This document shows, in pieces, positions 6,448 through 37,891 of a DNA stretch of 64,000 nucleotides. The notes below the pieces were generated by a model, which worked only from the letters and a program-made list of their open reading frames with translations, searched no databases and had not been told where the DNA came from. This DNA is from Gilvimarinus algae (GTDB lineage Bacteria; Pseudomonadota; Gammaproteobacteria; Pseudomonadales; Cellvibrionaceae). Made by a program: the position numbers and the translations under genes. The first letter of the stretch is position 1, and each line of letters opens with the position of its first letter. The stretch lies in the NCBI RefSeq assembly GCF_030518215.1, contig NZ_JAULRT010000052.1, positions 186,001 to 250,000 on the forward strand, read 5' to 3'.

Positions 6448-6464
6448 CGGGATAGAGACTGGAC

Positions 6465-9905: not shown

Positions 9906-12900
9906 TTATTTTTCCGGCTCATAACCGAGCACCGGGCTCAGCCAGCGCTCAAGATCGGCCAGTGGCATGGCTTTGCGCTCTGCCAGTGATTGCACCTGAT
10001 CCTTCTCGACCTTGCCGATAGCGAAGTACTCCGATTCAGGGTGCGAGAAGTACCAGCCGGAGACAGCGGCTGTGGGATACATGGCGAAGTGTTCGGTGAG
10101 TGTGATGCCGATGTTTTTCTCAGCGTCCAGCAGTGTGAACAAGGTGCCTTTTTCTGTGTGATCCGGACAGGCGGGGTAGCCGGGTGCCGGGCGAATGCCC
10201 CTATAGCGTTCGCGGATCAGGTCCTCGTTATCGAGTTGTTCGCCCTGGTCGTAGCCCCAGAACTCCTTGCGCACGCGCCGGTGCATATGTTCAGCCAGCG
10301 ATTCGGCCAGCCGGTCAGCGAGAGCCTTCACCATAATGGCGTTGTAGTCGTCACCTTTGGCCTCGTATTTTTTGGCCAGCTCTTCGGCGCCGATGCCAGC
10401 GGTGACGGCAAAGCCGCCGATGTAGTCCTGCTTGCCGCTGTCGCTGGGGGCAACAAAGTCGGCCAGGGAAAAGTTGGGCTTGCGGTTGCCGGGCTTTTGC
10501 TGTTGCTGGCGCAAGTGGTGCAGGCGCGCCAGCTCTTTGCCATCTTCGCTATAAACGGCAATGTCGTCGTGATTGACGGTATTGGCGGGCCAAAAGCCAA
10601 TTACGGCGCGTGCCTGAATCAACTTTTCATCAATCAGCTTGTTGAGCATAGACTGGGCATCGTCAAACAGGCTGCGCGCCGCCTCACCAACCACCTCGTC
10701 CTCGAGAATGCGCGGGTATTTACCGGCCAGATCCCAGCTGATAAAAAACGGCGTCCAGTCGATGGTGTCAAGCAAATCCCTTAAGGGGTAATCGTTAAAC
10801 ACTTTGATGCCGGTAAAGCTCGGTGCCGGTGGGTCGTAGTTGTCCCAGTCGCCTTTAAAGCCGTGCTCAATCGCCGCCTGGTAGCTGCGCAGGGTGCCAC
10901 GAGGTTTGCGGTTGGCATTGCGTACGCGCACTGCCTCGTATTCCTCTTTGATATCCGCGACGTACTTGTCCCGCGCCGTGTCCGACAGCAGTGTCGAACA
11001 CACACCAACTGCGCGCGAGGCATCGGCAACATAGACCGCCTGATTGATGTTCAGTACCGGATCAATCTTGACCGCGGTGTGTGCCTTGGAGGTGGTGGCG
11101 CCGCCGATAAGAAGCGGCTTGTTGATGCCCTGGCGCTCCATTTCACGGGCAACACTGACCATTTCATCCAGTGACGGGGTGATCAGGCCTGACAGGCCGA
11201 TGATATCGCAGTTTTCCTCCACCGCGGTCTGCAGGATTTTTTCACCGGGCACCATTACGCCCAGGTCCACCACTTCAAAGTTGTTGCACTGCAAGACAAC
11301 ACCGACAATGTTCTTACCAATGTCGTGCACATCGCCTTTGACAGTCGCCATGAGTATTTTGCCGTTAGGCTTGGCGCCCTCGACTTTTTCTGCCTCGATG
11401 TAGGGCTGCAAATAGGCCACCGACTGTTTCATTACCCGCGCGGATTTCACCACTTGCGGCAGAAACATTTTGCCCGCACCAAACAAGTCGCCAACGACGT
11501 TCATGCCGTCCATCAGTGGTCCTTCGATCACATCCAGAGGCTTCTCTGCCTGCTGTCGGGCCTGCTCGGTGTCCTCGACAATATAGGCGGAGATACCTTT
11601 GACCAGTGAGTGCTCAATACGCTTTTTGACATCCCAGCTGCGCCACTCCAGGTCTTCTTTTTTGACCGAGTCGCTGCCGCCTTCGCGGTATTTTTCGGCA
11701 ATATCGAGCAGCGCTTCGGTGGCACCATCGCTGCGGTTAAGAATGACGTCTTCTACTTTTTGGCGCAGCTCTTGCGGTAAGTCGTCGTACACGGCCAGCT
11801 GGCTGGCGTTGACGATCCCCATACTCATGCCCGCTTTAATGGCGTGGTATAAAAAGACCGAGTGGATGGCTTCGCGCACCGGGTTGTTGCCGCGAAAGGA
11901 AAACGACACATTGGAAACGCCGCCGGATATGCCGGCGTGCGGCAGGTTCTCGCGAATCCACGCCGTGGCCTCAATAAAGTCAACGGCGTAGTTGTTGTGC
12001 TCTTCAATGCCGGTGGCCACGGCAAAGATATTGGGATCAAAAATAATGTCTTCCGGTGGAAAGCCAAGTTTGTCGACCAGCACCCGGTAAGAGCGCTCGC
12101 AGATTTCTTTTTTGCGGGCGGCGGTATCCGCCTGTCCGGTTTCGTCGAACGCCATCACCACCACGGCGGCGCCGTAGCGCATGCAAAGGCGGGCTTTTTC
12201 AATAAACTCGTCTTCGCCTTCTTTGAGGCTGATGGAATTGACCACGCCCTTGCCCTGGATGCATTTCAGTCCAGCTTCAATGACCTCCCACTTGGACGAG
12301 TCCACCATAATTGGCAAGCGCGCTATATCCGGTTCACCGGCGATCAGGTTTAAAAAGCGGGTCATGGCAGCGGTGGCATCGAGCATGCCCTCGTCCATGT
12401 TGATATCGATAATCTGGGCGCCGCCTTCGACTTGCTCCAGCGCCACCTCCAGCGCCGTGTCGTAGTCCTCTTCGACGATCAGGCGCTTAAAGCGAGCTGA
12501 GCCGGTGACATTACAGCGCTCCCCGACGTTGACGAACAGCGAGTCGCGGGTGATGTTAAAAGGCTCCAAGCCAGCGAGCCGGCAGGCGGGTTCAATCTCG
12601 GGTATGACGCGTGGTGCATGCGGGGCGACTGTCTCGGCAATGGCCTGTATGTGATCGGGGCGGGTGCCGCAGCAACCGCCAATAATATTGAGAAACCCGG
12701 AGCTGGCGAACTCATCAATAATCGCCTGCATTTCTTCGGGCTCTTGATCGTACTCGCCAAATTCGTTGGGCAGCCCCGCATTGGGGTGGGCCGAGACGTA
12801 GCAATTGGCGATGCGCGACAGCTCTTGCACATACTGGCGCAGTTCCTTCGCACCCAGGGCGCAGTTTAGGCCGATAGACAGTGGCTTGGCGTGGGCCAGC

Positions 12901-13616
12901 GAATTATAGAAAGCTTCGGTGGTTTGCCCGGAGAGGGTGCGCCCCGAGGCGTCGGTAATGGTGCCGGAGATCATAATCGGCAGTTCAAAGCCCAGCTCGC
13001 TGAAGACCTCTTGCACCGCAAATATGGCCGCCTTGGCGTTTAGGGTATCAAAGATGGTCTCGATCAAAATCAGGTCCGAGCCGCCTTCGATCAGCGCTTT
13101 GGTAGCTTCGATATAATTTTCAACCAACTGATCAAAGGTCACGTTACGCGCGCCCGGATCGTTCACATCCGGAGAGATGGAGCAGGTGCGCGAGGTCGGG
13201 CCGAGTACGCCGGTGACATAGCGGGGTTTGTCCGGTGTGGCGGCGGTGAGCTCGTCGGCGACCTCGCGGGCGATGCGTGCGCCTTGCAGGTTCAGCTCAT
13301 AGGCGAGCTCCTCCATGCCGTAATCGGCCATGGAAATGCGCGTGGAGTTAAAGGTATTGGTCTCGATAATGTCCGCGCCGGCTTCCAGATAGTCCCGGTG
13401 GATTTGCTTCATCAGCTCGGGTTGGGTGATGTTAAGCAGGTCGTTGTTGCCCTTGACGTCGCGGTGGTAGTCGGCAAAGCGCTTGCCGCGGTATTCGGCC
13501 TCACTGAGTTTGTGGCTCTGGATCATGGTGCCCATGCCGCCGTCGAGCACGACGATGCGCTCGGTGAGGGTTTGTTTTAACTGGGCAATACGTTGGTCGC
13601 GATTCAATGCGCTCAT
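9906..13616 (-). CDS. metH: Cobalamin-dependent methionine synthase
   Basis: Transfers a methyl group from 5-methyltetrahydrofolate to homocysteine via cobalamin. The protein is 1236 aa, with four modules in the usual order. The homocysteine-binding barrel starts [12 protein letters not shown] and has the zinc-ligand motif [10 protein letters not shown]. The pterin-binding barrel contains [13 protein letters not shown]. The cobalamin module contains DVHDIG, with His764 as the expected cobalt ligand. The C-terminal reactivation domain binds S-adenosylmethionine ([15 protein letters not shown]). The start at 13616 (MSALNRDQR) was chosen because the frame extends upstream only through the promoter-like palindrome. 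No cobalamin riboswitch is seen upstream. Confidence 0.97.
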
Positions 13617-13656
13617 GCGGGGAAAACCTGTTGTCTCGGGGTTGGGCGAATCAAAG

Positions 13657-13682
13657 CCCGCGATTTTACCAGTAATCGCGGG
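13657..13682 (-). promoter_or_regulatory. Palindrome over a putative extended -10 promoter of metH
   Basis: CCCGCGATT and AATCGCGGG form a perfect 9-bp inverted repeat with an 8-base centre. On the minus strand the centre and its edge read ACTGGTAAAAT, an extended -10 (TGG-TAAAAT at 13671-13663). It could be an operator, or a weak terminator of the upstream mutarotase gene because CTTTG follows. Confidence 0.45.
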
Positions 13683-13745
13683 CCGGGGCCTGCCGGATTG
13701 ACCACTAGGGCCTGTATGCACTCAGTGTGCCCGGGCTCCAGAGGG

Positions 13746-14657
13746 TTAAGCCGGGGTAATGCTCATCTCGGCGTGGCGCTCTTCGCCTGGGGCCAGGCGC
13801 CAGCTGTCGCCCAGGCAGGCGCCGCGCTCGACACATACATACCCTGTGTGATGGCCGGGGCCGATATCGGCAATCTTGCGGGCGAGCTGATCGCCGGTGT
13901 TCCAGACCACCACACTCGGGCAGTTGTCGCCTGTTACGCGCAGGCGGCGGCCGGCATCAATGGTCACGGGCAGTTGAATGTCTTCAAACACCCGGTCGAC
14001 CTCGCCCGAGAAGGTGATGGGGCCACTTTGGGTAAAATAGCGCCCGCCCCGGACTTTATCGGCGTACTCGCGTCCATCCAGTCCCTCGACCCGCACGCCG
14101 GCAATGTCGCTAACGGCGAAATAGGTGTGCATCACCCAGCTGGCGTCAAAGGTCTCCTCACTGCGGTTGTGGAGGTGCAGGCTGAGTGTCGGGGTCAGGC
14201 CCAGCGTCAGTACCAGCGTAGCGCTGAAGTCGTGCTCAAATAGCAAGTCGGCGTTGTGGGTATACTCAAAGCTGAGATGACAAAGTTGATGGTCATCCAG
14301 CCGGGCGCCGGTCAAATGCCAGTCGCGGGTGCGAGCAATGCCGTGGTTGGGGCGGCTCTTGTCGCTGGGGTGGGGGCCAAACCAGGGCAGGCACAGGGGA
14401 ATACCGCCGCGCAGGCTCGCCCCCTCGCTGAATTGGCAATTGGGGCTGACCCACAGCAGCTCCTCGCCCCCGGTGGGCTTGAAGCTCAACAGTTGGGCGC
14501 CGTTGAAGGCAATCAGCGCTTCGCACAGGGGTGTGCTGACAGCCAGCAATGGCAGTCCGCTGCCCGGGTGGTCCGCAAAGCGGCTCTGGCTGTCGGTCAG
14601 TGAGAGAAATTCGTGTTCGGCTAACAGTCTTTGCAGCGATGGGTTGTGGCGGCTCAT
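13746..14657 (-). CDS. D-hexose-6-phosphate mutarotase-like protein (YeaD family aldose epimerase)
   Basis: A predicted cytoplasmic enzyme of 303 aa in the galactose mutarotase-like superfamily, YeaD branch, which interconverts alpha and beta anomers of hexose 6-phosphates. Family features are FNGAQLLSFKPTGGEELLWVSP, GIPLCLPWFGPH, HGIARTRDW (the HG-A-R motif with the probable catalytic His) and HTYFAVSDI. The ATG at 14657 was chosen over a TTG two codons upstream. It diverges from rapA and lies 129 bases upstream of metH on the same strand. The family has also been annotated as apiosyl- or glucose-6-phosphate 1-epimerase. Confidence 0.85.
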   Translation of the reverse strand: MSRHNPSLQRLLAEHEFLSLTDSQSRFADHPGSGLPLLAVSTPLCEALIAFNGAQLLSFKPTGGEELLWVSPNCQFSEGASLRGGIPLCLPWFGPHPSDKSRPNHGIARTRDWHLTGARLDDHQLCHLSFEYTHNADLLFEHDFSATLVLTLGLTPTLSLHLHNRSEETFDASWVMHTYFAVSDIAGVRVEGLDGREYADKVRGGRYFTQSGPITFSGEVDRVFEDIQLPVTIDAGRRLRVTGDNCPSVVVWNTGDQLARKIADIGPGHHTGYVCVERGACLGDSWRLAPGEERHAEMSITPA

Positions 14658-14709
14658 AATCAATACGTCGGCTAAAAGGCGCGTATTTTAGCAAAAATGG
14701 CGCTTGCGG

Positions 14710-14738
14710 TTCAGTTTATGGCCCACTCGCAGTATGAT
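14710..14738 (+). promoter_or_regulatory. Promoter of rapA
   Basis: A -10 box TATGAT (14733-14738) with a weak -35 TTCAGT exactly 17 bases upstream. It places the transcript start near 14745 and supports the GTG start of rapA at 14770. Confidence 0.55.
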
Positions 14739-14769
14739 GCGCGCCCGGAAAGACAAGCGAGAGGTCAGT

Positions 14770-17709
14770 GTGTCGCAAGCAGCAGTTACCGTCGGTCAGC
14801 GTTACGTCAGTGATACCGAGCCCGAACTGGGGCTGGGAGTGGTGCTTCAGATAGACGGTGGGGCCGTGGATATCGGTTTCCCCGCAGCGGGGCAGAGGCG
14901 CACCTATTCTTTGAGCGAAGCGCCGCTGAGCCGGGTGCGCTACACACCGGGCGAGCGAATCAAGCATCAGGACGGCCAGGCTGTGGTGGTGGCCGAGGTG
15001 ATCGAGCAGGGCGGTTGCCTGCTCTACCAAACCCTCACCGAGGACGGTCAGGCGCGGGCTATTCCGGAGTTTGAGCTGGACAGCTTCGTGCAGTTTAGCA
15101 AGCCTCGGGAGAGGCTCTTTGCGGGTCAAATCGATAAAAGCAACCATTTCTCTCTGCGTTACCACAGTCGCGTCCTGCGCCACCGGGTAGAGGCTGAATC
15201 CACCTTTGGCCTGGGCGGTGCACGGGTGTCGCTCTTGCCTCATCAACTATACATCGCCTCGCAAGTGGCAAGTCGCTACGCCCCGCGGGTCTTGCTGGCC
15301 GATGAGGTGGGGCTCGGAAAGACCATTGAGGCGGGCCTGATACTGCACCGCCAACTGCTGACCGGGCGCAGCAAGCGCGCTCTGGTACTGGTGCCCGACT
15401 CACTACTGCACCAGTGGCTGGTGGAAATGCTGCGGCGCTTTAATCTCGCCTTTACCCTGCTCGATGAAGAGCGTTGCCTCTCGCTTGAGGGCAGAGATGT
15501 CGACGGCGAAGAACCGGAACTCTCGCCGGAGGGTGCCGAGCCGGCGGAGGGTGAGATCAACCCGTTCGAAAGTGCGCAATTGGTGCTCTGCTCGCAGAGC
15601 TTTATCGCCGGCAGCGAGCGGCGTTTGCAGCAGGCGCTGGCGGCCGATTGGGATTTGTTGTTGGTGGACGAGGCTCACCATTTGCTCTGGAGCGCCGAGG
15701 GCGCGAGTGCCGAATACCTGGCTGTTGAGCAATTGGCGCGGCGCGCGCGAGGGCTCTTGCTGCTCACGGCCACACCGGAACAATTGGGTCTTGAAAGCCA
15801 CTTTGCCCGTCTGCGCCTGCTCGATCCCGACCGCTACTACGACCTGGCCGCGTTTATCGCTGAACAGAAAAGCTATCAGCCCTTGAGTGAGCTGGTTGAG
15901 CAATTGCTTGAGCGGCGCCCCGTCAGTCCCGAGGAAATGGCAGAACTGCCAGAGAATGTGACCGGTGAGCTGGCGCAGTTTTTGGACGCGCAGAGCATTG
16001 AGCGGGCTGCCTGCCAGGCGCGCGATACTTCATTGCAGGGGGCGATTGACGATCTGATCGACATATTGCTCGACCGCCATGGCACCGGTAGAGTTCTGCT
16101 GCGCAATACCCGGCACGGGGTCGCAGGTTTCCCCGAGCGTGAGCTGCACCGGTACGAAATTCCCATCAGCGATGAGGACGCCGAGGCGCTCGCGGCTGAG
16201 CCGCTGCGTGTGCAGCTGCACCCCGAAGCTTTTTGGCAAACAAAAGGGGATTGGTGGCTTCACGACCCTCGAGTGCTCTGGCTCAGGGATCTGGTGAAAG
16301 AAAAGCGTGGCCAGAAGATTCTGGTGATCTGCGCCGACGGCGACACTGCGCAATCGCTCGAGCTCTATCTGCGCCTTCGCCATGGCGTCGCCTGTGCGGT
16401 CTTTCACGAGGGCATGAATCTGATCGCCCGCGACCGCGCGGCGGCTTATTTCGCCGACAGCGAAGAGGGCGCCCAGGTACTCATTGCCTCGGAAATCGGC
16501 AGCGAGGGGCGCAACTTCCAGTTTGCCCAAGATCTGGTGCTCTTTGACCTGCCTCTCAACCCGGATTTGTTGGAGCAGCGTATTGGCCGGCTGGATCGCA
16601 TTGGCCAGGCGGGGCGCATTCACCTTCATGTGCCCACCTACTGGGCGAGCAGGGCTAGCGCCCAGGAAAAGCTCGCGCGCTGGTACCATGAAGGGGTAAA
16701 TGCTTTCGAGCACACCTGCGCCATTGGCCATGCCGCCTACGTCGAGTTTGAAGATCGGTTGCTTGAGGCTCTAAGCGCCGATGAAGACGAGCCCATGGAC
16801 GTCTTGATCGAGCGCACCGCGGCGTATGCGCAAACGCTCAACGCCGAGCTGCAGGCCGGGCGGGATAAACTGCTGGAGCTGAACTCCTGCCGCCCCGGTA
16901 AGGCCGAGGCTATTGTTGATAAGCTGGCCACTCAGGACAACGACAGTGAGCTGCCCGAGTATTTGATGCGCGCGCTGGACAGTTTTAATGTGGACTATGA
17001 GCGGCACAGCGAAAACAGTTGGGTGCTGCACCCCGGCGAGCACATGCGCGTGGATCCCTATCCGGGGTTACCCGAGTCTGGCCTGACGGTAACCTTTGAC
17101 CGCGAGCAGGCACTGTCGCGCGATGACATGAGCTTTTTAACCTGGGAGCACCCTTTGGTGCGCGGCACTTTGGAGCTCATTGCCGATACCGAGTTTGGCA
17201 ACACAGCGGTGGCAACGCTTAAATTGCCGCCGCTTAAGCCGGGCACTCTGATGGTGGAAACGGTTTTCTGTCTCTACAGTCCGGCCCCGGCGCACCTGCA
17301 ACTGGGCCGCTACATAACGCAACCGGTTATGCGCGTGCTGCTCGATACTCAGGGCAAGGATTTTGCGGCGGTGCTCAGTCCGGATAAACTCGATAAACTC
17401 TTGCAAAAAGTGCCCCGTGCCAGCGCCCAAGAGTTGGTCCGGCACAGCCGTGAACAGCTGGTCTCTATGCTCGATGCCGCCGAAGCCAAAATTGCGCCGC
17501 TCAAGCTCGAGCAGATTGCCAGCGCGCAGCGCAATCTCGAACAGGATATCGGCCGTGAAGTGGAGCGTTTGCGCGATCTCGCTCGGGTAAACCCGAATAT
17601 TCGCGACGAGGAAATTGAGCATCTCGAGCAGCGCCTGGCGCAGAGCGTTGAGCATTTGCAGCACGCGAGCCTCAAGCTCGATGCGGTACGGGTGATTATC
17701 GCCGTGTAA
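14770..17709 (+). CDS. rapA: RNA polymerase-associated ATPase RapA (HepA)
   Basis: A Swi2/Snf2-type ATPase that binds RNA polymerase and helps recycle it. The protein is 979 aa (E. coli 968). The tandem N-terminal Tudor-like domains start GQRYVSDTEPELGLGVV, as in E. coli (GQRWISDTESELGLG). The helicase core has DEVGLGKT from residue 178 (Walker A Lys184) and DEAH at 300-303. The second RecA lobe shows SEIGSEGRNFQFA and RIGRLDRIGQ. The GTG at 14770 is preceded by GAGAGG and lies downstream of a good -10 box. ATG codons further upstream lie before or within that promoter and are rejected. Confidence 0.95.
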   Translation: MSQAAVTVGQRYVSDTEPELGLGVVLQIDGGAVDIGFPAAGQRRTYSLSEAPLSRVRYTPGERIKHQDGQAVVVAEVIEQGGCLLYQTLTEDGQARAIPEFELDSFVQFSKPRERLFAGQIDKSNHFSLRYHSRVLRHRVEAESTFGLGGARVSLLPHQLYIASQVASRYAPRVLLADEVGLGKTIEAGLILHRQLLTGRSKRALVLVPDSLLHQWLVEMLRRFNLAFTLLDEERCLSLEGRDVDGEEPELSPEGAEPAEGEINPFESAQLVLCSQSFIAGSERRLQQALAADWDLLLVDEAHHLLWSAEGASAEYLAVEQLARRARGLLLLTATPEQLGLESHFARLRLLDPDRYYDLAAFIAEQKSYQPLSELVEQLLERRPVSPEEMAELPENVTGELAQFLDAQSIERAACQARDTSLQGAIDDLIDILLDRHGTGRVLLRNTRHGVAGFPERELHRYEIPISDEDAEALAAEPLRVQLHPEAFWQTKGDWWLHDPRVLWLRDLVKEKRGQKILVICADGDTAQSLELYLRLRHGVACAVFHEGMNLIARDRAAAYFADSEEGAQVLIASEIGSEGRNFQFAQDLVLFDLPLNPDLLEQRIGRLDRIGQAGRIHLHVPTYWASRASAQEKLARWYHEGVNAFEHTCAIGHAAYVEFEDRLLEALSADEDEPMDVLIERTAAYAQTLNAELQAGRDKLLELNSCRPGKAEAIVDKLATQDNDSELPEYLMRALDSFNVDYERHSENSWVLHPGEHMRVDPYPGLPESGLTVTFDREQALSRDDMSFLTWEHPLVRGTLELIADTEFGNTAVATLKLPPLKPGTLMVETVFCLYSPAPAHLQLGRYITQPVMRVLLDTQGKDFAAVLSPDKLDKLLQKVPRASAQELVRHSREQLVSMLDAAEAKIAPLKLEQIASAQRNLEQDIGREVERLRDLARVNPNIRDEEIEHLEQRLAQSVEHLQHASLKLDAVRVIIAV

Positions 17710-30211: not shown

Positions 30212-30237
30212 GGGCCTGGCAACAGGCCCTTTTTTTT
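30212..30237 (+). terminator. Rho-independent terminator after the AsmA-like gene
   Basis: GGGCCTG / CAGGCCC stem with GCAA tetraloop and a run of eight T. Confidence 0.92.
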
Positions 30238-30245
30238 AGGCCTGT

Positions 30246-33149
30246 TTAGTCTTGCCACTGATACCTTAGCCCCAGTAAAAAGCGGCGTCCGTTTTCGTAA
30301 AACCCCTGGGGAATGCCGCTGGCGCTGCGGATGTAAATAATTTCGTTGTTTAAATTGATGGCCTCTAGCGACACACTCAACTCGTTGCTCAGGTACCAGT
30401 GCAGGCTGCCATCGAGCTGCGAGTAGGCGGCTGTTTTACTCTGACTGCCGGCGATAACTTCACCGTAAGAGCTCGAGCGGTAGTTGTAGGACAGACGCGC
30501 ATCCACACGGGCGTTTTCGTAATAGACCGAGGCGTTAAATTGGTCCCGCGAGTTGCCCGGTAGTTTGATGGCCGTTAGCCCCTCAGGGGAGGGAACATGA
30601 GCGTCGGTATAGGTGTAATTGGATTGAACCCCAAAGCCCCAAGCGATGTCCTGTTGCCAGCGCAGCTCAATACCACTGATGCTGGCGCCATAACTGTTGC
30701 GGTTGGTGGTGATGTTTAAGGTTCGTCCGTCGATTTGACGCGTCTCGGTGGTGGGGTAAACAAAGCTGGTGATGTCTTTATAAAATGCGGTAATCGCAAG
30801 CATTGAGGTGGGGGAAGGGTACCACTCAACGCCGATATCAGCCTGATTGGCCTGGTAGGGATTAAGCTCGGGATTGCCCGCCAAGCCCGAGCCACTGGTC
30901 GGGTCAACGATCAGCCCCGGGGCGATGTCCTCGTAGTTCGGTCGTGCCATGACCTCGGCAAGGGAGGCGCGAACAATGGTCGACTCGCCCACTTGGTAGC
31001 GCAGGTTGATACTGGGTAAAAGGTGCCGGTAGCGCCGCTGGTACTCAACCAGCTGCTCGCCCAGGTATCCGCTGGACGCCTGTTCAGTGGCCACCGCTCT
31101 GACGCCCGCGTCAATGTGTAGGGGGCCAAATTCAAAGGCACCTTGCACATAGGCGGCCAGTGAGTCTTCCTCTATGCGGTAGTAGGCACTCGGGTCATTG
31201 CGATAGGCGAGTAGGCCCGTCTGGTACGCCGGTTGTATCACCTCTTGCAACAGGCGGGCATCGGTGCGTGCGTATTGACGCACATTGCTGACCTCCGGTA
31301 CCTCGGGCAAGAGCAAGGGCGTTAACTCGTGGGAGACTGCGGCAAGGGAGGTGGATGAGAGCGACTGCCAGCGCGGATGGTTGGTGTCGATTTCACCGAG
31401 GATACGCGTGTTGACCACCCCGTGATCGCGCCGTTTGAGGCCCGCTTTGAGTCTGCTCATCCATGGGGCGGCAGGGTGGTACTCAATGTCAATTTGCCCG
31501 TAGGTTTCACTGTTTTCCATGGCCCGTATCCAATCGCGCGAGTCGGCTGAAAAGCTGCTCATGGCGCTTGCGCTTTTGGGGTCGAGGTCGAGGTAGTTTA
31601 CCTCGACTCTATCGGGGCTAAGTGCGAAGGCAAAACGGGTGTTGCCGGCAAAGCGATAGAGGTAATCATGGTCTGTGCCACCGGTGGACTCGGTATGGCC
31701 CAGCTGCCAGTGGAGCTGCCACCGTTCGTCCGTGTAATAGGTTTCCCAGTCGCTGACCCGGGTGTCGATATACCCCTGTCGATAGATGGCATCGAGCAGC
31801 GCGCCGGTGCTGTCGGCGTTGCTGAGCAGGCCGCCGGTAAGGTTGAGGTAGCCGTCCTCGCTCGTCTGAAAAACCGGGTTTGTTACGGTGGCGGGAGGCG
31901 TTTCACGCAGCTTGAGCCCACCGGGGGCAAACAAATAATTGTGATTGACGCTGGCGATATCCATTTGCGAACGGAAAATATTCAGCACACTGTTCCAGTG
32001 GTCATCGGGTGCCCATTGCAGGGTGAGATTCCCGGTGTTGTGCGAGCGATCCTGCTCCAGCAAGGCGGTGCCGCCGCCCCAAATGGCGTAGACATTCTGG
32101 GTAATCTCGCCTTTGGGTTCGGTGATGGTGTAGAGAGTGTCATTGGCGAAGGTTTCCTGGCCATCGCGCCGGCTGCGTCGATTTTGTACATTGAAACTGG
32201 CGAGTACGCCAAAGGTGTCGTCGGTGTTGCTCCAGCTTCCGAGGGCGGACGCCTGAGGGTCCCAGTGGGCAGACAGTTCGCTGTATTGCTGTTCAAGCTG
32301 CACGCTGATGAGCTGGTCGGCCACAGACAGGGGTTGACGGGTCCTGACAATAACGGTTCCGCCGATGCTGCCCTCATCAATGTCCGCTCTCGGGGTTTTG
32401 TGCACTTCTATGGATTGCACCAGTTGCGAGGCGAGGGTGGAGTAATTAAACCCGCGGCTCAGGTTGTCATTGGCCCACCAGTAGCTGGAGGCGACGTGTT
32501 GACCATTGAGCAGTGTGCGGTTGATGTCTTTATCGGTGCCGCGAATATTGACGTCGCGTCCTTCTCCCCACAGTCGGTCAACGGAGACACCAGCGACGCG
32601 CTGCAGCGAGTCGGCGACGTTGCGATCGGGGAATTTACCAATATCGTTGGAGGTGATGACATCGATCACATTGGGCGCCTGGCGCTTTTCGGTAAGGCTC
32701 AACCTCAGTGAGTTGCGGATGCCAGTCACGTAGGTTTCTTCCACGGCCATGCTGTGCGGGGTATTGGGGAGTACTGGCTCGGGGGTCAGGCTGGCGTACT
32801 GTTCTTGTTCGGGGGAGTGAATAACCAGGGCATTATTGCCGCTGAAGGTGAAGCGTAGTTCGCTGCCCGCCAGCAGCCGCATTAAAGCTTGCTCGTGGCT
32901 GAAACTGCCGTGCAGGGGTTGGGTGGTGATATCAGGCAGGATGTCGGAGCGATAGAAAATTTGCATGCCCGATTGATCGGCGTAGCGCTTGAGCGCATCG
33001 GCCAGTGGCAGTGCGGGTATGTCAAAGTGCTGGCTCTGCGCCATTTTATTGTGGGCGTGATCGTGCTCGCCAGCAACGGATGAATCGGCTATACCCAGGC
33101 ACGCCAGCAGGACGCTGAAACAGATGGCAAGCAGGCGTTGCCCGGGCAT
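30246..33149 (-). CDS. TonB-dependent outer-membrane receptor with N-terminal STN signalling domain
   Basis: A FecA-like transducer of about 967 aa. After a signal peptide (MPGQRLLAICFSVLLACLG) and a His-rich stretch (EHDHAHNK), residues ~42-105 form an STN domain (FDIPALPLADALKRYADQSGMQIFY) that would contact FecR in the periplasm. The plug contains DSLQRVAGVSVDRLWGEGRD, and the barrel ends in an aromatic residue pattern (GLRYQWQD). It diverges from an ECF sigma/FecR pair, as expected for cell-surface signalling. The start is uncertain: ATGs at 33191 and 33221 and a TTG at 33245 are in frame, and none has a clear ribosome-binding site. It is paralogous to the receptor at 35178. The ligand is unknown. 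Confidence 0.87.
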   Translation of the reverse strand: MPGQRLLAICFSVLLACLGIADSSVAGEHDHAHNKMAQSQHFDIPALPLADALKRYADQSGMQIFYRSDILPDITTQPLHGSFSHEQALMRLLAGSELRFTFSGNNALVIHSPEQEQYASLTPEPVLPNTPHSMAVEETYVTGIRNSLRLSLTEKRQAPNVIDVITSNDIGKFPDRNVADSLQRVAGVSVDRLWGEGRDVNIRGTDKDINRTLLNGQHVASSYWWANDNLSRGFNYSTLASQLVQSIEVHKTPRADIDEGSIGGTVIVRTRQPLSVADQLISVQLEQQYSELSAHWDPQASALGSWSNTDDTFGVLASFNVQNRRSRRDGQETFANDTLYTITEPKGEITQNVYAIWGGGTALLEQDRSHNTGNLTLQWAPDDHWNSVLNIFRSQMDIASVNHNYLFAPGGLKLRETPPATVTNPVFQTSEDGYLNLTGGLLSNADSTGALLDAIYRQGYIDTRVSDWETYYTDERWQLHWQLGHTESTGGTDHDYLYRFAGNTRFAFALSPDRVEVNYLDLDPKSASAMSSFSADSRDWIRAMENSETYGQIDIEYHPAAPWMSRLKAGLKRRDHGVVNTRILGEIDTNHPRWQSLSSTSLAAVSHELTPLLLPEVPEVSNVRQYARTDARLLQEVIQPAYQTGLLAYRNDPSAYYRIEEDSLAAYVQGAFEFGPLHIDAGVRAVATEQASSGYLGEQLVEYQRRYRHLLPSINLRYQVGESTIVRASLAEVMARPNYEDIAPGLIVDPTSGSGLAGNPELNPYQANQADIGVEWYPSPTSMLAITAFYKDITSFVYPTTETRQIDGRTLNITTNRNSYGASISGIELRWQQDIAWGFGVQSNYTYTDAHVPSPEGLTAIKLPGNSRDQFNASVYYENARVDARLSYNYRSSSYGEVIAGSQSKTAAYSQLDGSLHWYLSNELSVSLEAINLNNEIIYIRSASGIPQGFYENGRRFLLGLRYQWQD

Positions 33150-33330
33150 TGCACGTGGCAGAGCGCTTTGCAGAGCGTCGGAAACTGGCATTATCGAAAT
33201 CGGGTATTCGCTCGTAGGCATGGAAACATGCGCTATTTTCCGCAAAAATACAAGACATAGGGCGTAAAGCCCGGCTTGTGGTAGCTTTGACTAAGAGCGC
33301 TTGTGGGTCTGGTAAAAAAAATCGTAAAAA

Positions 33331-33360
33331 GTGTCGGGGAAAGGATCGCATTGGCGTTAT
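33331..33360 (+). promoter_or_regulatory. ECF-type promoter of the fecI-like sigma gene
   Basis: GTGTCGGGG, then 14 bases, then GCGTTAT. The same two boxes with the same spacing precede the second TonB receptor on the other strand (37891-37862). The gene start is about 50 bases downstream in both cases. Assignment to the local ECF sigma is inference. Confidence 0.6.
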
Positions 33361-33410
33361 AGGCTATGGCGTAGTGTTTTTATTGATCGTGGGCCGGAGC
33401 AAAACAAACG

Positions 33411-33986
33411 ATGGCAGTACCCAGAGTCAATCTCAGGTTGGTGGACTCCAACCGTGAAGCGGATCTGCTCAGCCTGAGTCAGCGCGAGTATGTCGAGCAG
33501 CTCTACGGTCGTTACCGTGGGGATTTGCACGGCTACATCGCTCGGCTCTTGCCGTCGGGGGCCGGTGATATTGAGAGTATTTTGCAGGAGACCTATGTGC
33601 GCTTGTTGCGTCAGGACAGCCTGGACAAACTCAGCGACAACGCCCGTGCCTATATATACACCACGGCCACTAATCTGGTTCGCGACAGCGTGCGTCGCCA
33701 CGTAAGACAAAAGGGTGATTGGCATGAGCCGCTGGATGAAACTGCGCACCCGGTGGATGAGCACTCACCGCAACACGGTGCTCAGTGGCAGCAATCGCTT
33801 GAGCGCATACGGATGGCGCTTGCCGCGTTAAAACCTGTGACACGCGATGTGTTTATTCTGAGCCGCTTTCACGAGTACAGTTACCCCGAGATTGCCGAGC
33901 GGTTATCGCTGAGTACGCGCAGTATTGAACGACATATGAGCAAGGCCTTGAGCCATTTACGCAAGACACTGGATGATCTGTTATGA
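33411..33986 (+). CDS. ECF RNA polymerase sigma factor, FecI-like
   Basis: A 191-aa sigma-70 family regulator. Region 2 covers about residues 25-90 (YGRYRGDLHGYIARLL, AYIYTTATNLVRDSVRR) and region 4 about 130-185 (LKPVTRDVFILSRFHEYSYPEIAERLSLSTRSIERHMSKAL), a clean helix-turn-helix. This is the FecI type that works with a FecR anti-sigma and an STN-bearing receptor. Its stop overlaps the start of the fecR-like gene (ATGA), so the two are translationally coupled. Its own upstream region carries the presumed target motif, consistent with autoregulation. Confidence 0.93.
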   Translation: MAVPRVNLRLVDSNREADLLSLSQREYVEQLYGRYRGDLHGYIARLLPSGAGDIESILQETYVRLLRQDSLDKLSDNARAYIYTTATNLVRDSVRRHVRQKGDWHEPLDETAHPVDEHSPQHGAQWQQSLERIRMALAALKPVTRDVFILSRFHEYSYPEIAERLSLSTRSIERHMSKALSHLRKTLDDLL

Positions 33987-34969
33987 CGCACGAGGGTGCT
34001 GACAAAAAACCCATTGCCGATACAGCGGCTGACTGGTTTGCCCGCCGCCGTGGTGCTCGGCTGTCCGCCTCCGAGGAGCGCGCCTTCGAGCAGTGGCTGG
34101 CCGCGAGTCAGGAGCACACCCTTGCCTATGCCCAGTGTGAACTGGCTTGGGAGCTGAGCGCCGCCGTGCCTGAGCCGGCGCTGTCGCGCTCGCTCACGGC
34201 GAGTGCCAGTCCTGCAAAAAGCCGCTATCGCGCACTCTCGCCCTGGCGCATGGGCGGGGCGGTGGCGGCGAGTGCGCTCCTGGTTTCGGCCCTGTTGCTC
34301 AGCCGCTCTCCCGATTTGTCAGATCATTATCAAACCGAGATTGGTGAGCAACGGGTTGTTCACTTGGAAGATGGCTCATCGGTGATGCTCAACACCAACT
34401 CGGCTCTTCAGGTTCGTTATTCGCGCACCGAGCGCCACTTGCAGCTGACCCGCGGGGAGGCATTTTTTACCGTGGCGAAAAATCTGGACAGACCCTTTGT
34501 GGTTGAGGTGTCCGGTAGCGAAGTCAGGGCTCTGGGAACGGCGTTTAATATCGAAAAAGGTGTTACCGACATTGAGGTGGCTGTCACCCGGGGTCTGGTG
34601 GAAGTGGCCGCACCGGCCCGCTTTTGGCAACCTGAGATCAGTACACGTCTCGAGCCCGGGCAAGGTGTTCACTGGCGGGCGGATGATCAACAAGCGCTCA
34701 AACCGCAAGCTGTGAACCTCGAGCGGGTCACCGCCTGGCAGGCGAGCAAACTCTATTTTGAGGGCGAGCGCCTCGCCGATGCTTTGGCCGAGTACAACCG
34801 CTACACTCGTCGTCAATTTGTGTTGGTGGATGACGATCTCGCCGATGAGCGCATCAGTGGCGTGTTCAATCTGGGGGATGACGAAGCGCTCACCTTCGCT
34901 CTGGAAAAGAGCCTGGGCGCGCGCGTGGTGGCCACCGAGAATCGGGTGTTGATACTCGCCGACCACTAA
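33983..34969 (+). CDS. FecR-like anti-sigma/sigma-regulator protein
   Basis: A 328-aa protein. The cytoplasmic N-terminal domain (DTAADWFARRRGARLSASEERAFEQWLA, DUF4880-like) binds the sigma factor. A transmembrane helix lies at about residues 90-108 (GGAVAASALLVSALLLS). The periplasmic FecR domain (VVHLEDGSSVMLNTNSALQVRY) and a C-terminal STN-like module (LADALAEYNRYTRRQFVLV) follow and are expected to contact the receptor STN domain. It overlaps the sigma gene by 4 bases and ends about 110 bases before a minus-strand terminator. Confidence 0.92.
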   Translation: MTHEGADKKPIADTAADWFARRRGARLSASEERAFEQWLAASQEHTLAYAQCELAWELSAAVPEPALSRSLTASASPAKSRYRALSPWRMGGAVAASALLVSALLLSRSPDLSDHYQTEIGEQRVVHLEDGSSVMLNTNSALQVRYSRTERHLQLTRGEAFFTVAKNLDRPFVVEVSGSEVRALGTAFNIEKGVTDIEVAVTRGLVEVAAPARFWQPEISTRLEPGQGVHWRADDQQALKPQAVNLERVTAWQASKLYFEGERLADALAEYNRYTRRQFVLVDDDLADERISGVFNLGDDEALTFALEKSLGARVVATENRVLILADH

Positions 34970-35081
34970 ACGTTTTTTCTTTTCTTGTCTTAGCTCGGCT
35001 AGCCTCGGCTGCTGAGACGGCCCCGTCTCTACGATAAACGAGTCAAGCCCCTGCTAATGCTATGGGGGGGGTGCGGCCAAT

Positions 35082-35103
35082 AAAAAAGGCGCCCGGAGGC
35101 GCC
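35082..35103 (-). terminator. Terminator of the second TonB receptor
   Basis: Read on the minus strand, GGCGCC-TCCG-GGCGCC is followed by TTTTTT. It lies about 75 bases beyond the receptor stop. Confidence 0.8.
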
Positions 35104-35177
35104 AAAACAAGAGGACGTTTCCGGCCGTGGCCGGTTAGGCTATGCAAGGCGCCTCCCTGCGCCAGGGTGTACTCCTC

Positions 35178-37805
35178 TTAAAAGTTGTAGCGGGCGCCGA
35201 GACTGTAACGTGGGCCGTTTTCGTAAAAACCCACCGGTAAGCCGTCTGAGGTGCGCTGGTAAATGATCTCGTTGGTGATGTTCACCGCCGTGGCAAACAG
35301 CGTGAAGTTGTCTGAGACCGTCCAGTTGGCGGTGGCATCCCACTGATCGTACTCATCCGTTGCCAGTTGCGAGCCAGAGGTCAGACCGCCGTAAGATTCG
35401 GAGCGCATGTTATAGGACACCCGTAGACTGACGGTGTCATTTTCATAGTACACAGAGGCGTTGAACTGATCCTTCGAATTGCCGGGCAGCTCCAGCTGAG
35501 TGCCGTCTTCGTTGGCTGGTACGTCGGCGTCCGTCCAGGTGTAGTTGGCGAGAAAACCAAAGCCCATGCCCAGGTCCTGCTGGTACTGCAGCTCTATCCC
35601 CTGAATGTCCGCTCCGTTCGGGGCGTTGTAGGGGCGGGTGACATTGATGGTCTCGCCGTCGATCTGCTCCGGTTGGGTGTCGGTAAAGACAAAGGTGGAG
35701 AGTTCCTTATTAAAATAAGTCGCCGCCAGTAGACTCAGATCGGTAAAGTACCACTCGGCACCAAACTCAAACTGATCGGCCATGATCGGATCGAGGTTGG
35801 GGTTACCCGCGGTGGCGGTACCGCTGGTGGCGTTGATCACAATGTTGGAACTCAGGTTCTGGAAGGTCGGCCGCGCCATGGCACGGGAAGCGGCGGCGCG
35901 CAACAAGAGGTTGTCCGACAGATCGTAAATCAGGTTAAGACTCGGTAGGGTGTCGGTGTAACTGCGGCTTACTGAACCGAGATCGCCGTCGATGTAAGCG
36001 TTGGAGGTTTGATCGGTTTGCACCAAACGCACACCGAGATTGCCGCGTAACTTGCCCGCCTCAAAATCGGCCTGGGCGTAGGCGGCTGAAATTTCCTCGT
36101 TGATTTTGTAGTAGGCGCGCTGATCTTCTGAGTAGGTCATGGCGCCGGCGTCGAGGATCGAGTCGATTTTCTGTTGCGCCAGATCAATGTCCAGAAACGC
36201 GTACTGGGTCAGTGAGCCCGACGTGGCCGCCTCGCCATGTAACTCGGGGCTGGGTCCCGAGGATACGTCGGCAAGCGTAATGGCGTTGAGCGCCGCTACC
36301 TGATCGGCAATGTCGGGGTTGCTGACGTTGACGCCGCCCACACTGCGGTTGTTTTCAATGGAGTGGTCGCGGAACTTGGCGCCGACTTTCAGTGCATTGA
36401 TAAAGCCCCAGTCCACGTTGAATTCCAGATCGGCCTGGGCGTAGGTTTCATCGTCTTCCATAATTCGCACCCAATCGCGCAGGTTGGCAGCGTTCAGATT
36501 GAGCGCGCTGCCGTCCAGCGGGTCTACGTCCGGAAAGCTGAATTCATTGGTGTTGGGACCAAAGTTCAACACCTCGCGGCTATAGCCCTCAAACCAATAG
36601 TTGCGATCTTTGGTGCTGCCACCTTCGGCGCTGGTCTGGCCAGCTTGCAGGTGCAAAACCCAGTCGTTACCCGCGTATTCGGCGTCAATATCAAAAACTT
36701 CGGATTCCACATAGGCGTCGCGCACAATGGGTTCGTCGGCAACGCCAATGCTGTCGGGGTTTTCAATGGTGCCGCCTACCAGAGCCCGGCGGCCATCGCT
36801 GGTGGGAATAAAGACCGGATCAGTGACCACATCGCCATTGGGAATTTTGTAGCCGCCCACCACAAACAGATAGTTTTGGTTGGAGTTGTCCATATCCATG
36901 TCGGATTTGACGTAGTTGACGGCAATGTCCCAGGCGTCGATGGGGCGAAATTGCAGGGTCAGATTAGCGGTGTCGCGCTCGCGGTCCTGATTGAAAATGG
37001 CTGAGCCGCCACCCCAGGGCACGTAGACATCGTCATAGGTTTCGCCGTTTTGATCGGTGATGGTGTACAGATCGTTGGTGGGGAAGACCTCCAGGCCATC
37101 GCGGCGCATGGTGCGCGTCTGGCTGTTAAAAGAGGCGAGAACACCAAAGGTTTCCGAATCGTTCTTCCAGCTGACCAGTCCCGATACCTGAGGGTCCCAC
37201 TCGTCGGGCAGGTCACTGTATACGCCTTCTACCGAGGCGTTGATGGTCAGTGGGTCGAGGTCCATGGGGCGGCGGGTGCGCACGTTCACCATGCCGCCAA
37301 TGCTGCCTTCATCGTGGCGCGCTTCGGGGCTTTTGTAGACCTCCAGCGAAGAGACCAACTCAGAGGCCAAAATGGAATAGTTAAAACCGCGGCTCGGATT
37401 ATCGTTGGCCCACCAGTAAGCCGAGGCCACGTTCTGGCCGTTCATCAGTGTGCGGTTCAAAGTGCTGTCGGTACCGCGGACAAAAATGTCGCGGCCTTCA
37501 CCCCAGATTCGATCCACAGATACACCGGGAATGCGCTGCAGAGAATCGGCGACGTTTTTATCCGGGAATTTACCGATGTCTTCCGAGCTGATCGCATCGA
37601 CAATGGATGTGGCATCGCGCTTCACATCCAGCGATTGGGCAAGGGCGCCGCGAATGCCGGTGACCGTGACCTCTTCAATGGCCTCAGCGCTACCTTGCGC
37701 AGCGGTATTACCCGCCAGCAACGGCAGGCCAATCGATAGTGCAAAAACAGTGTTGGCAAGCGGCTTTTTGCGCGCCTGCAGTGGCAAACCTCTGGGGTGT
37801 TTCAT
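35178..37805 (-). CDS. TonB-dependent outer-membrane receptor (no STN domain)
   Basis: An 875-aa protein with a signal peptide (KPLANTVFALSIGLPLLAGNTAAQ) and a TonB box-like start of the mature part (IEEVTVTGIRGALAQSLDVKRDA). The plug has SSEDIGKFPDKNVADSLQRIPG, and the long beta-barrel ends GLPVGFYENGPRYSLGARYNF. GAGGAGT 6 bases upstream supports the start. The plug is strikingly like that of the STN-bearing receptor at 30246 (shared GVSVDR-WGEGRD, SYWWANDN/AYWWANDN and DEGSIGG), so the two are paralogues. The upstream ECF-type motif suggests that it is the regulated uptake receptor of this locus. Confidence 0.92.
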   Translation of the reverse strand: MKHPRGLPLQARKKPLANTVFALSIGLPLLAGNTAAQGSAEAIEEVTVTGIRGALAQSLDVKRDATSIVDAISSEDIGKFPDKNVADSLQRIPGVSVDRIWGEGRDIFVRGTDSTLNRTLMNGQNVASAYWWANDNPSRGFNYSILASELVSSLEVYKSPEARHDEGSIGGMVNVRTRRPMDLDPLTINASVEGVYSDLPDEWDPQVSGLVSWKNDSETFGVLASFNSQTRTMRRDGLEVFPTNDLYTITDQNGETYDDVYVPWGGGSAIFNQDRERDTANLTLQFRPIDAWDIAVNYVKSDMDMDNSNQNYLFVVGGYKIPNGDVVTDPVFIPTSDGRRALVGGTIENPDSIGVADEPIVRDAYVESEVFDIDAEYAGNDWVLHLQAGQTSAEGGSTKDRNYWFEGYSREVLNFGPNTNEFSFPDVDPLDGSALNLNAANLRDWVRIMEDDETYAQADLEFNVDWGFINALKVGAKFRDHSIENNRSVGGVNVSNPDIADQVAALNAITLADVSSGPSPELHGEAATSGSLTQYAFLDIDLAQQKIDSILDAGAMTYSEDQRAYYKINEEISAAYAQADFEAGKLRGNLGVRLVQTDQTSNAYIDGDLGSVSRSYTDTLPSLNLIYDLSDNLLLRAAASRAMARPTFQNLSSNIVINATSGTATAGNPNLDPIMADQFEFGAEWYFTDLSLLAATYFNKELSTFVFTDTQPEQIDGETINVTRPYNAPNGADIQGIELQYQQDLGMGFGFLANYTWTDADVPANEDGTQLELPGNSKDQFNASVYYENDTVSLRVSYNMRSESYGGLTSGSQLATDEYDQWDATANWTVSDNFTLFATAVNITNEIIYQRTSDGLPVGFYENGPRYSLGARYNF

Positions 37806-37861
37806 CGTTTACTCCTCGTTATTTTGTTATGGCACGTCGGTTTGATAACCGCGTTAGGGAG

Positions 37862-37891
37862 TAAACGCCGAGGGGGCAAAAACCCCGACAC
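37862..37891 (-). promoter_or_regulatory. ECF-type promoter of the second TonB receptor
   Basis: On the minus strand, GTGTCGGGG, then 14 bases, then GCGTTTA. It matches the motif in front of the sigma gene at 33331-33360 in both boxes and spacing, while the spacer sequences differ. Confidence 0.6.

Follow-up and report, generated by a model that had tools for sequence, protein, structure and literature searches.

Promoter-like sites shared by a FecI-like sigma factor gene and an STN-less TonB receptor gene in Gilvimarinus algae

We describe here a predicted promoter motif at the locus of a FecI-like sigma factor of the extracytoplasmic function (ECF) type in Gilvimarinus algae. The locus spans positions 30246-37805 plus upstream sites of a 64,000-nt stretch from the 4.2-Mb genome. 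This whole stretch is called the window, and positions refer to it unless another locus is named. The sigma gene is followed by a fecR-like gene and accompanied by two paralogous TonB-dependent receptor genes, one encoding the STN signalling domain (the sensor) and one lacking it (T2). One promoter-like site lies ahead of the sigma gene and a second one ahead of T2. The sites are conserved at orthologous loci, keep their spacing, are specific to one clade of sigma factors and are restricted to this locus within the own genome. The promoter assignment is well supported by these comparisons. Very likely the genes form a cell-surface signalling module of the FecI/FecR/TonB-transducer type, in which sensor and importer roles are split and the motif is read by the FecI-like sigma factor. 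From the sequences we infer that the sigma factor binds the sites, that FecR controls it, that sensing and import are divided and that a ligand exists.

The two predicted promoter sites

The predicted ECF promoter of sigma-fecR (33332-33360, plus strand) consists of TGTCGG (33332-33337), a 17-nt spacer (N17) and CGTTAT (33355-33360). That of T2 (37862-37890, minus strand) consists of TGTCGG (37890-37885), N17 and CGTTTA (37867-37862). An earlier, sequence-only reading had described the pair as GTGTCGGGG-N14-GCGTT at 33331-33358 (plus strand) and 37891-37864 (minus strand), and both sites are found exactly there. When spacers of N12 to N16 are allowed, this pattern matches only these two places within the window and none in 100 shuffles. 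The box ends 50 nt ahead of the start codon for the sigma gene and 56 nt ahead of it for T2, and the spacers differ between the two sites. The shared motif of the earlier description is kept in relatives, but its leading G and its fourth G are not conserved. The relatives refine the motif to TGTCGGG-N16-CGTTTA.

From 27 sites of relatives, with the window excluded, we built a matrix with the consensus TGTCGGG-n-TTT-N9-TT-n-CGTTTA. Within the window the matrix gives its highest score to the T2 site (24.6) and its second-highest to the sigma site (18.2), followed by a third place at 9.2. The maximum over six simulated windows was 14.2. Both sites are conserved at the orthologous sigma and receptor genes, which supports the prediction that the sigma factor drives itself and the STN-less receptor. 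Upstream of the sensor gene the best matrix score was -11 to -12 (rank 410), such that no site is present there in the window. A scan with the sigma-70 consensus between the divergent genes found no promoter for the sensor. At the sigma and receptor promoters the best match to a Fur box was 11 of 19 positions, using the E. coli consensus and a simple count without background, which speaks only weakly against control by Fur. The motif consensus equals its own reverse complement at only 4 of 29 positions and is thus not operator-like.

The sigma gene (33411-33986, plus strand) encodes 191 aa with the Pfam domains Sigma70_r2 and Sigma70_r4_2. The general ECF model of NCBIfam (sigma70-ECF) gave 78.5 bits, above its cut-off of 42.9, and the FecI equivalog model gave 65 bits, far under its cut-off of 260. 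The open reading frame (ORF) of the FecR-like anti-sigma factor or sigma regulator (33983-34969, plus strand, 328 aa) starts within the sigma gene, overlapping its end by 4 nt; the Pfam matches to FecR (76 bits) and DUF4880 (40 bits) are both above cut-off. The sensor gene (30246-33245, minus strand) is divergent from the sigma gene. Its called start is probably too early and, judged from the signal peptide, the true start probably lies at 33191 or 33149. STN assignments are based on Pfam and alignment. In the sensor the domain covers residues 94-142 (32820-32966, minus strand) with an E-value of 2e-5, and its 24.7 bits lie under the Pfam gathering score of 28.4. Among 15 aligned STN receptors, window included, the domain was called at E<=0.001 in 11 (best 8.9e-11). 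T2 (35178-37805, minus strand, 875 aa) is convergent with sigma-fecR. It gave no Pfam match to STN even at E 0.1, and its plug starts at residue 62, leaving no room for the domain. The two receptors share 47% identity over 836 aa and score 563 and 665 bits with TIGR01782 (TonB-Xanth-Caul receptors; cut-off 310 bits). Both contain a TonB-box-like stretch as judged by eye, which in T2 directly follows the signal peptide. Terminator-like hairpins lie on the minus strand just past the stop codons of T2 (35088-35103, with a T run) and of the sensor (30212-30229). Both are consensus matches only, and 20 such hairpins were found in 10 kb where 10.2 are expected.

The own genome gave no sign of a large regulon. 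TGTCGG-N17-CGTT occurs 6 times compared to 19 for a backward-pattern control, and the looser TGKCGG-N17-CGTWW 18 times compared to 20; since the forward counts do not exceed the control, no large regulon is indicated. We scored 22 distinct genome matches, namely the two sites described here, four other TGTCGG-N17-CGTT matches, one N18 variant and 15 other TGKCGG-N17-CGTWW matches (for one of them, L186, the score in the match list belongs to a neighbouring place). The two at this locus are the only ones located outside mechanically called ORFs, in agreement with the local regulon that had been proposed from the window sequence. The N18 near-match (L001), about 0.95 kb before another TonB receptor gene, was rejected: it starts within the end of the upstream ORF, straddling the ORF end, and scores -5.

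Conservation at orthologous loci

Homologues of the sigma factor were gathered from sets of 58, 390, 369 and 144 genomes. These sets overlap and the larger ones were sampled; in the 390- and 369-genome sets scoring was limited to the first 8 or 9 candidates of each genome. A named collection was added, containing Exilibacterium, Cellvibrio, Pseudomaricurvus, Teredinibacter and uncultured bins, among others. The same sigma gene is found in Cellvibrio mixtus J3-8 (NZ_KN266211.1), which belongs to the same family as the genome of the window.

Presence of the motif at orthologous loci had been named as a check by the sequence-only reading. Within at most 360 nt upstream, TGTCGG-N16..18-CGT was found at 14 of the 16 sigma homologues classed as close (identity of at least 37%) and at 1 of 41 distant FecI-like loci (Fisher p 2e-10; the line between close and distant was drawn after the scores had been seen, and five loci without a tblastn hit and two duplicates were left out). 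In all 14 close-homologue sites the spacing between the boxes is 17 nt. The sigma proteins at motif-bearing loci are only 37-53% identical. A leave-group-out matrix scan, window included, detected a sigma site in 16 of 17 cases (lowest score 8.8) and a T2 site in 10 of 11. The eleventh T2 gene (L113) has a TGGCGG site at 6460, within the called ORF and upstream of a likelier start. The sigma site of L120 is likewise a TGGCGG variant and scores 18.6.

We furthermore scanned ten loci that had not been used before, with a set of 29 matrix sites (window included) settled before these loci were retrieved and with a threshold score of 11. All ten carried a sigma site and all ten a T2 site, while none of the nine STN receptors had one (the stretch of L173 is without an STN receptor). 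For L173 and L182 the sigma gene was positioned from the homologue search, as it was missed by the mechanical ORF list. The T2 site of L177 overlaps an ORF on the opposite strand. Over 24 loci (915,696 positions) 63 places score 12 or more; these comprise 30 known sites, the 20 sigma and receptor sites of the new loci, 7 antisense sites (see below) and 6 others that do not belong to sigma, receptor or halogenase promoters.

One could ask whether the pair of sites is a chance match, or a repeat left behind by duplication of the receptor gene, given that the receptors are paralogues. The second site precedes the sigma gene rather than the paralogous receptor, however, and the unlike spacers, the empty shuffles, the retention of the motif at such diverged sigma genes and the agreement of the ten further loci all speak against it. 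We consider this explanation extremely improbable.

Several observations weigh against the preferred reading of a sigma-read motif with a split of roles. The sigma gene of L111 has only a weak match (2.9), with an N16 site located upstream of the preceding gene, and it is the sigma site of L110 that scores only 8.8. The leave-group-out counts are partly circular, because the matrix sites had been picked by exact pattern. In four of the ten further loci (L168, L172, L176 and L182) the T2 site lies within the longest called ORF, such that the T2 start had to be inferred there, and the T2 site of L182 is a TGGCGG variant. Nine of the ten come from a single genus (g4) that was already represented in the matrix by three loci, and the remaining one from the Cellvibrio genus; since nine of ten are g4, the further loci provide replication within lineages and not across them. 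In the own genome an N17 match with a score of 17.6 (L088, G000:C16:781931-781957, minus strand) lies inside an ORF in sense direction. The start of this ORF resembles SufB, and the match is probably due to chance.

Finally, of 15 loci with an STN receptor, window included, three (L113, L118 and L120) carry the motif at this receptor. In L113 T2 follows the STN receptor at once, and in L118 no T2 is present in the stretch. The absence of the motif at the STN receptor, which the sequence-only reading had noted, thus holds for the window (score -11) but not clade-wide. These loci bear on a more ordinary form of cell-surface signalling, in which both receptors would be induced and the STN receptor, driven by a degenerate or different promoter, would be the main importer. 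In published systems the sigma factor also targets the gene of the transducer receptor (PMC11637429), as would be the case in L113, L118 and L120. The window is different: as a promoter prediction, its sensor gene is not transcribed by the sigma factor, scoring -11 to -12 upstream compared to 18-25 at the two sites, and the motif is missing at 12 of 15 and 9 of 9 STN receptors. This ordinary arrangement therefore appears unlikely for the window. Given these 3 of 15 loci, the sensor is usually but not universally excluded; the sequences suggest a rule of the window's lineage and not of the whole clade. Because its sensor is without a site, we regard the module as a variant and not as canonical cell-surface signalling.

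Receptor evolution, antisense sites and genomic context

A second receptor pair was found in another family (L110 in G132). Here a sigma gene of the clade lies beside a divergent STN receptor gene (10852-13437), with an STN-less receptor gene behind (13649-15943). Sites at 10753 and 13530 belong to the sigma gene and the STN-less receptor and not to the STN receptor. Pfam did not call STN in the latter at E<=0.001, but its N-terminal part can be aligned to the STN region of the other receptors. The two L110 receptors share 56% identity, compared to only 18% and 24% with those of the window. In a tree of 33 receptors, which was midpoint-rooted and has long outgroup branches, they pair as sisters (100/100), and the remaining ten STN-less receptors group together (98/96). 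The L110 pair may thus either have arisen separately or have been made alike by gene conversion.

In 10 of 11 loci the sensor had a longer terminal branch than the STN-less receptor of the same locus, by a factor of 1.4 to 11 (0.59 compared to 0.13 for T2 in the window); in L110 the relation is reversed. Evolution of the sensor appears to be faster than that of the importer.

In tandem loci, where T2 or, in L114, a tryptophan halogenase gene directly follows the sensor, an extra site on the opposite strand points antisense into the 3' end of the sensor gene. It was found in 6 of 9 tandem loci, at L070 9493-9521, L114 6701-6729, L115 6744-6772, L116 6751-6779, L119 6560-6588 and L120 6720-6748. 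These sites lie back to back with the following gene's promoter, score 14.1 to 27.6 and have box starts 26 to 78 nt past the sensor stop codon; the search range was about -60 to +285 nt around this codon. L168 carries an additional antisense site (13817-13845) 353 nt past the stop, beyond the searched range. No antisense site was found in the tandem loci L113 and L110, nor in any of 15 non-tandem loci, window included, where no score exceeded 4.7. The difference between 6 of 9 and 0 of 15 (Fisher p 6e-4) was compared after the sites had been seen, and three of the six loci are close relatives. The training set contained no antisense site. A weaker antisense match (13.0-13.9) lies about 0.5 kb inside one sensor gene of L069. 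In L069 (8248-17829, G013) the complete set of sigma, fecR and STN receptor genes occurs twice in tandem. Both sigma genes carry a site of their own, and the 20-kb stretch contains no gene for an STN-less receptor.

Some relatives may therefore also damp their sensor, which is not predicted for the window itself. A broader scenario would be that the sigma clade was rewired into a sensor/importer split with at least two origins by receptor duplication, one copy being without STN, and that tandem lineages added sigma-driven antisense transcription of the sensor. We put this forward tentatively, as a possibility that we think is more doubtful than not. If true, induction would raise importer and sigma factor and damp the sensor, such that negative feedback would replace the FecA-type positive feedback on the receptor.

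The module occupies a variable genomic slot. The sigma gene was absent from all seven genomes of the same genus (E<=1e-15), and two congeners (G007 and G003; L141 and L143) possess both flanking genes, for an AsmA-like protein and an M50 peptidase, with other genes in between; from the latter we conclude that the slot is variable. An attempt to deduce the ligand from the neighbours failed, as the flanking genes examined are not common to the loci: GH88 and KduI genes lie near L115 and a methyladenine glycosylase gene in L107 and L109. Since the neighbours are not shared, we propose no ligand. Tryptophan halogenase-type genes were seen beside the module in L114 (4902-6554, with its own sigma-type promoter) and L120 (2364-3917). 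In Teredinibacter sp. ISS155 (L119, 1866-3386) a GH18 chitinase gene with CBM5/12 lies directly behind T2, a possible hint to a chitin-derived ligand in this organism.

Comparison with known systems and proposed working

The E. coli FecI/FecR/FecA system likewise consists of a FecI-like sigma factor, FecR and an STN-bearing TonB receptor from adjoining genes. There the sigma factor transcribes fecA, i.e. the sensor itself, and fecIR is controlled by Fur and not autoregulated (PMC9249621). In contrast to Fec, the window has its sites at the sigma gene and at a second, STN-less receptor, none at the sensor and no good Fur box. The Serratia heme system HasI/HasS/HasR, again with sigma factor, regulator and TonB receptor, also deviates from Fec in its gene control, and hasI is not autoregulated (PMC9249621). 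A separation of sensing from transport, as proposed here, is known from P. aeruginosa PUMA3 (VreA/VreR/VreI), where VreA has an STN-like domain and no barrel (PMC2729926). Unlike VreA, the sensor described here retains a complete barrel, and the promoter site is found at the gene of its STN-less paralogue. In Ralstonia the PrhA/PrhR/PrhI transducer apparently signals, to hrp genes, without a need for transport, and the excerpt mentions no STN-less twin (PMC1790865). HemI/HemR/HemAD of S. maltophilia resembles a FecIRA-like operon but differs from the window by its single operon and truncated transducer. It was tested and found not to be autoregulated (PMC12772443). This paper states that many ECF sigma factors autoregulate, contrary to the PUMA3 paper, which calls self-induction unusual for an ECF sigma factor. 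The excerpt of PMC11647585 contained nothing on a split pair or on the motif. In the literature covered, we found neither a split sensor/STN-less pair under a FecI-like sigma factor nor the motif; the main ECF re-classification was outside this scope, and novelty of the motif is not established.

The motif itself resembles two mapped promoters of S. meliloti RpoE10, a member of ECF42, that have TGTCGG-N17-CGTC (PMC6180224). Because the -35 box and the 17-nt spacing to CGT are the same, the boxes in the window can be taken to be of the ECF type. For the same reason the boxes alone leave room for a different ECF sigma factor, which is a further point against our assignment: the motif might be read by another member such as an ECF42-type factor, or by a separate transcription factor co-regulating the sigma gene and the receptor gene. 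Five other stretches of the own genome match this sigma factor at E<=0.001. On the other hand, the motif tracks this sigma clade (14 of 16 compared to 1 of 41) and sits at the sigma gene itself. Its -10 side is CGTTAT or CGTTTA in the window, and CGTTTA or similar elsewhere, compared to CGTC in ECF42, and the motif is not palindromic. We therefore consider a different reader of the motif very unlikely. RpoE10 itself is of another ECF group; it has a regulatory C-terminus of its own and no identifiable anti-sigma factor nearby (PMC6180224).

With the FecI-like sigma factor as the reader of the motif, the module could work as follows. The STN receptor would bind the ligand at the outer membrane and signal through its STN domain to the periplasmic part of FecR, by which the sigma factor would be freed. 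RNA polymerase with this sigma factor would then recognise TGTCGGG-N16-CGTTTA and transcribe sigma-fecR itself, providing positive feedback, as well as T2, the import channel, whose amount would go up on induction. One twin would thus probably only sense, with the other one made to import. With the sensor gene predicted not to belong to the regulon in this genome, a rise in uptake capacity would not be matched by a rise in signal detection.

For the Cellvibrionaceae and their relatives these results suggest a sequence-defined promoter, TGTCGGG-N16-CGTTTA, for a clade of FecI-like sigma factors, and since the promoter would be defined by sequence, the regulons would become predictable. They also point to a recurrent circuit that assigns sensing and import to different paralogous TonB receptors and directs feedback to the sigma factor, not to the sensor. 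The conserved antisense site in tandem loci makes the idea of a negative feedback directly testable.

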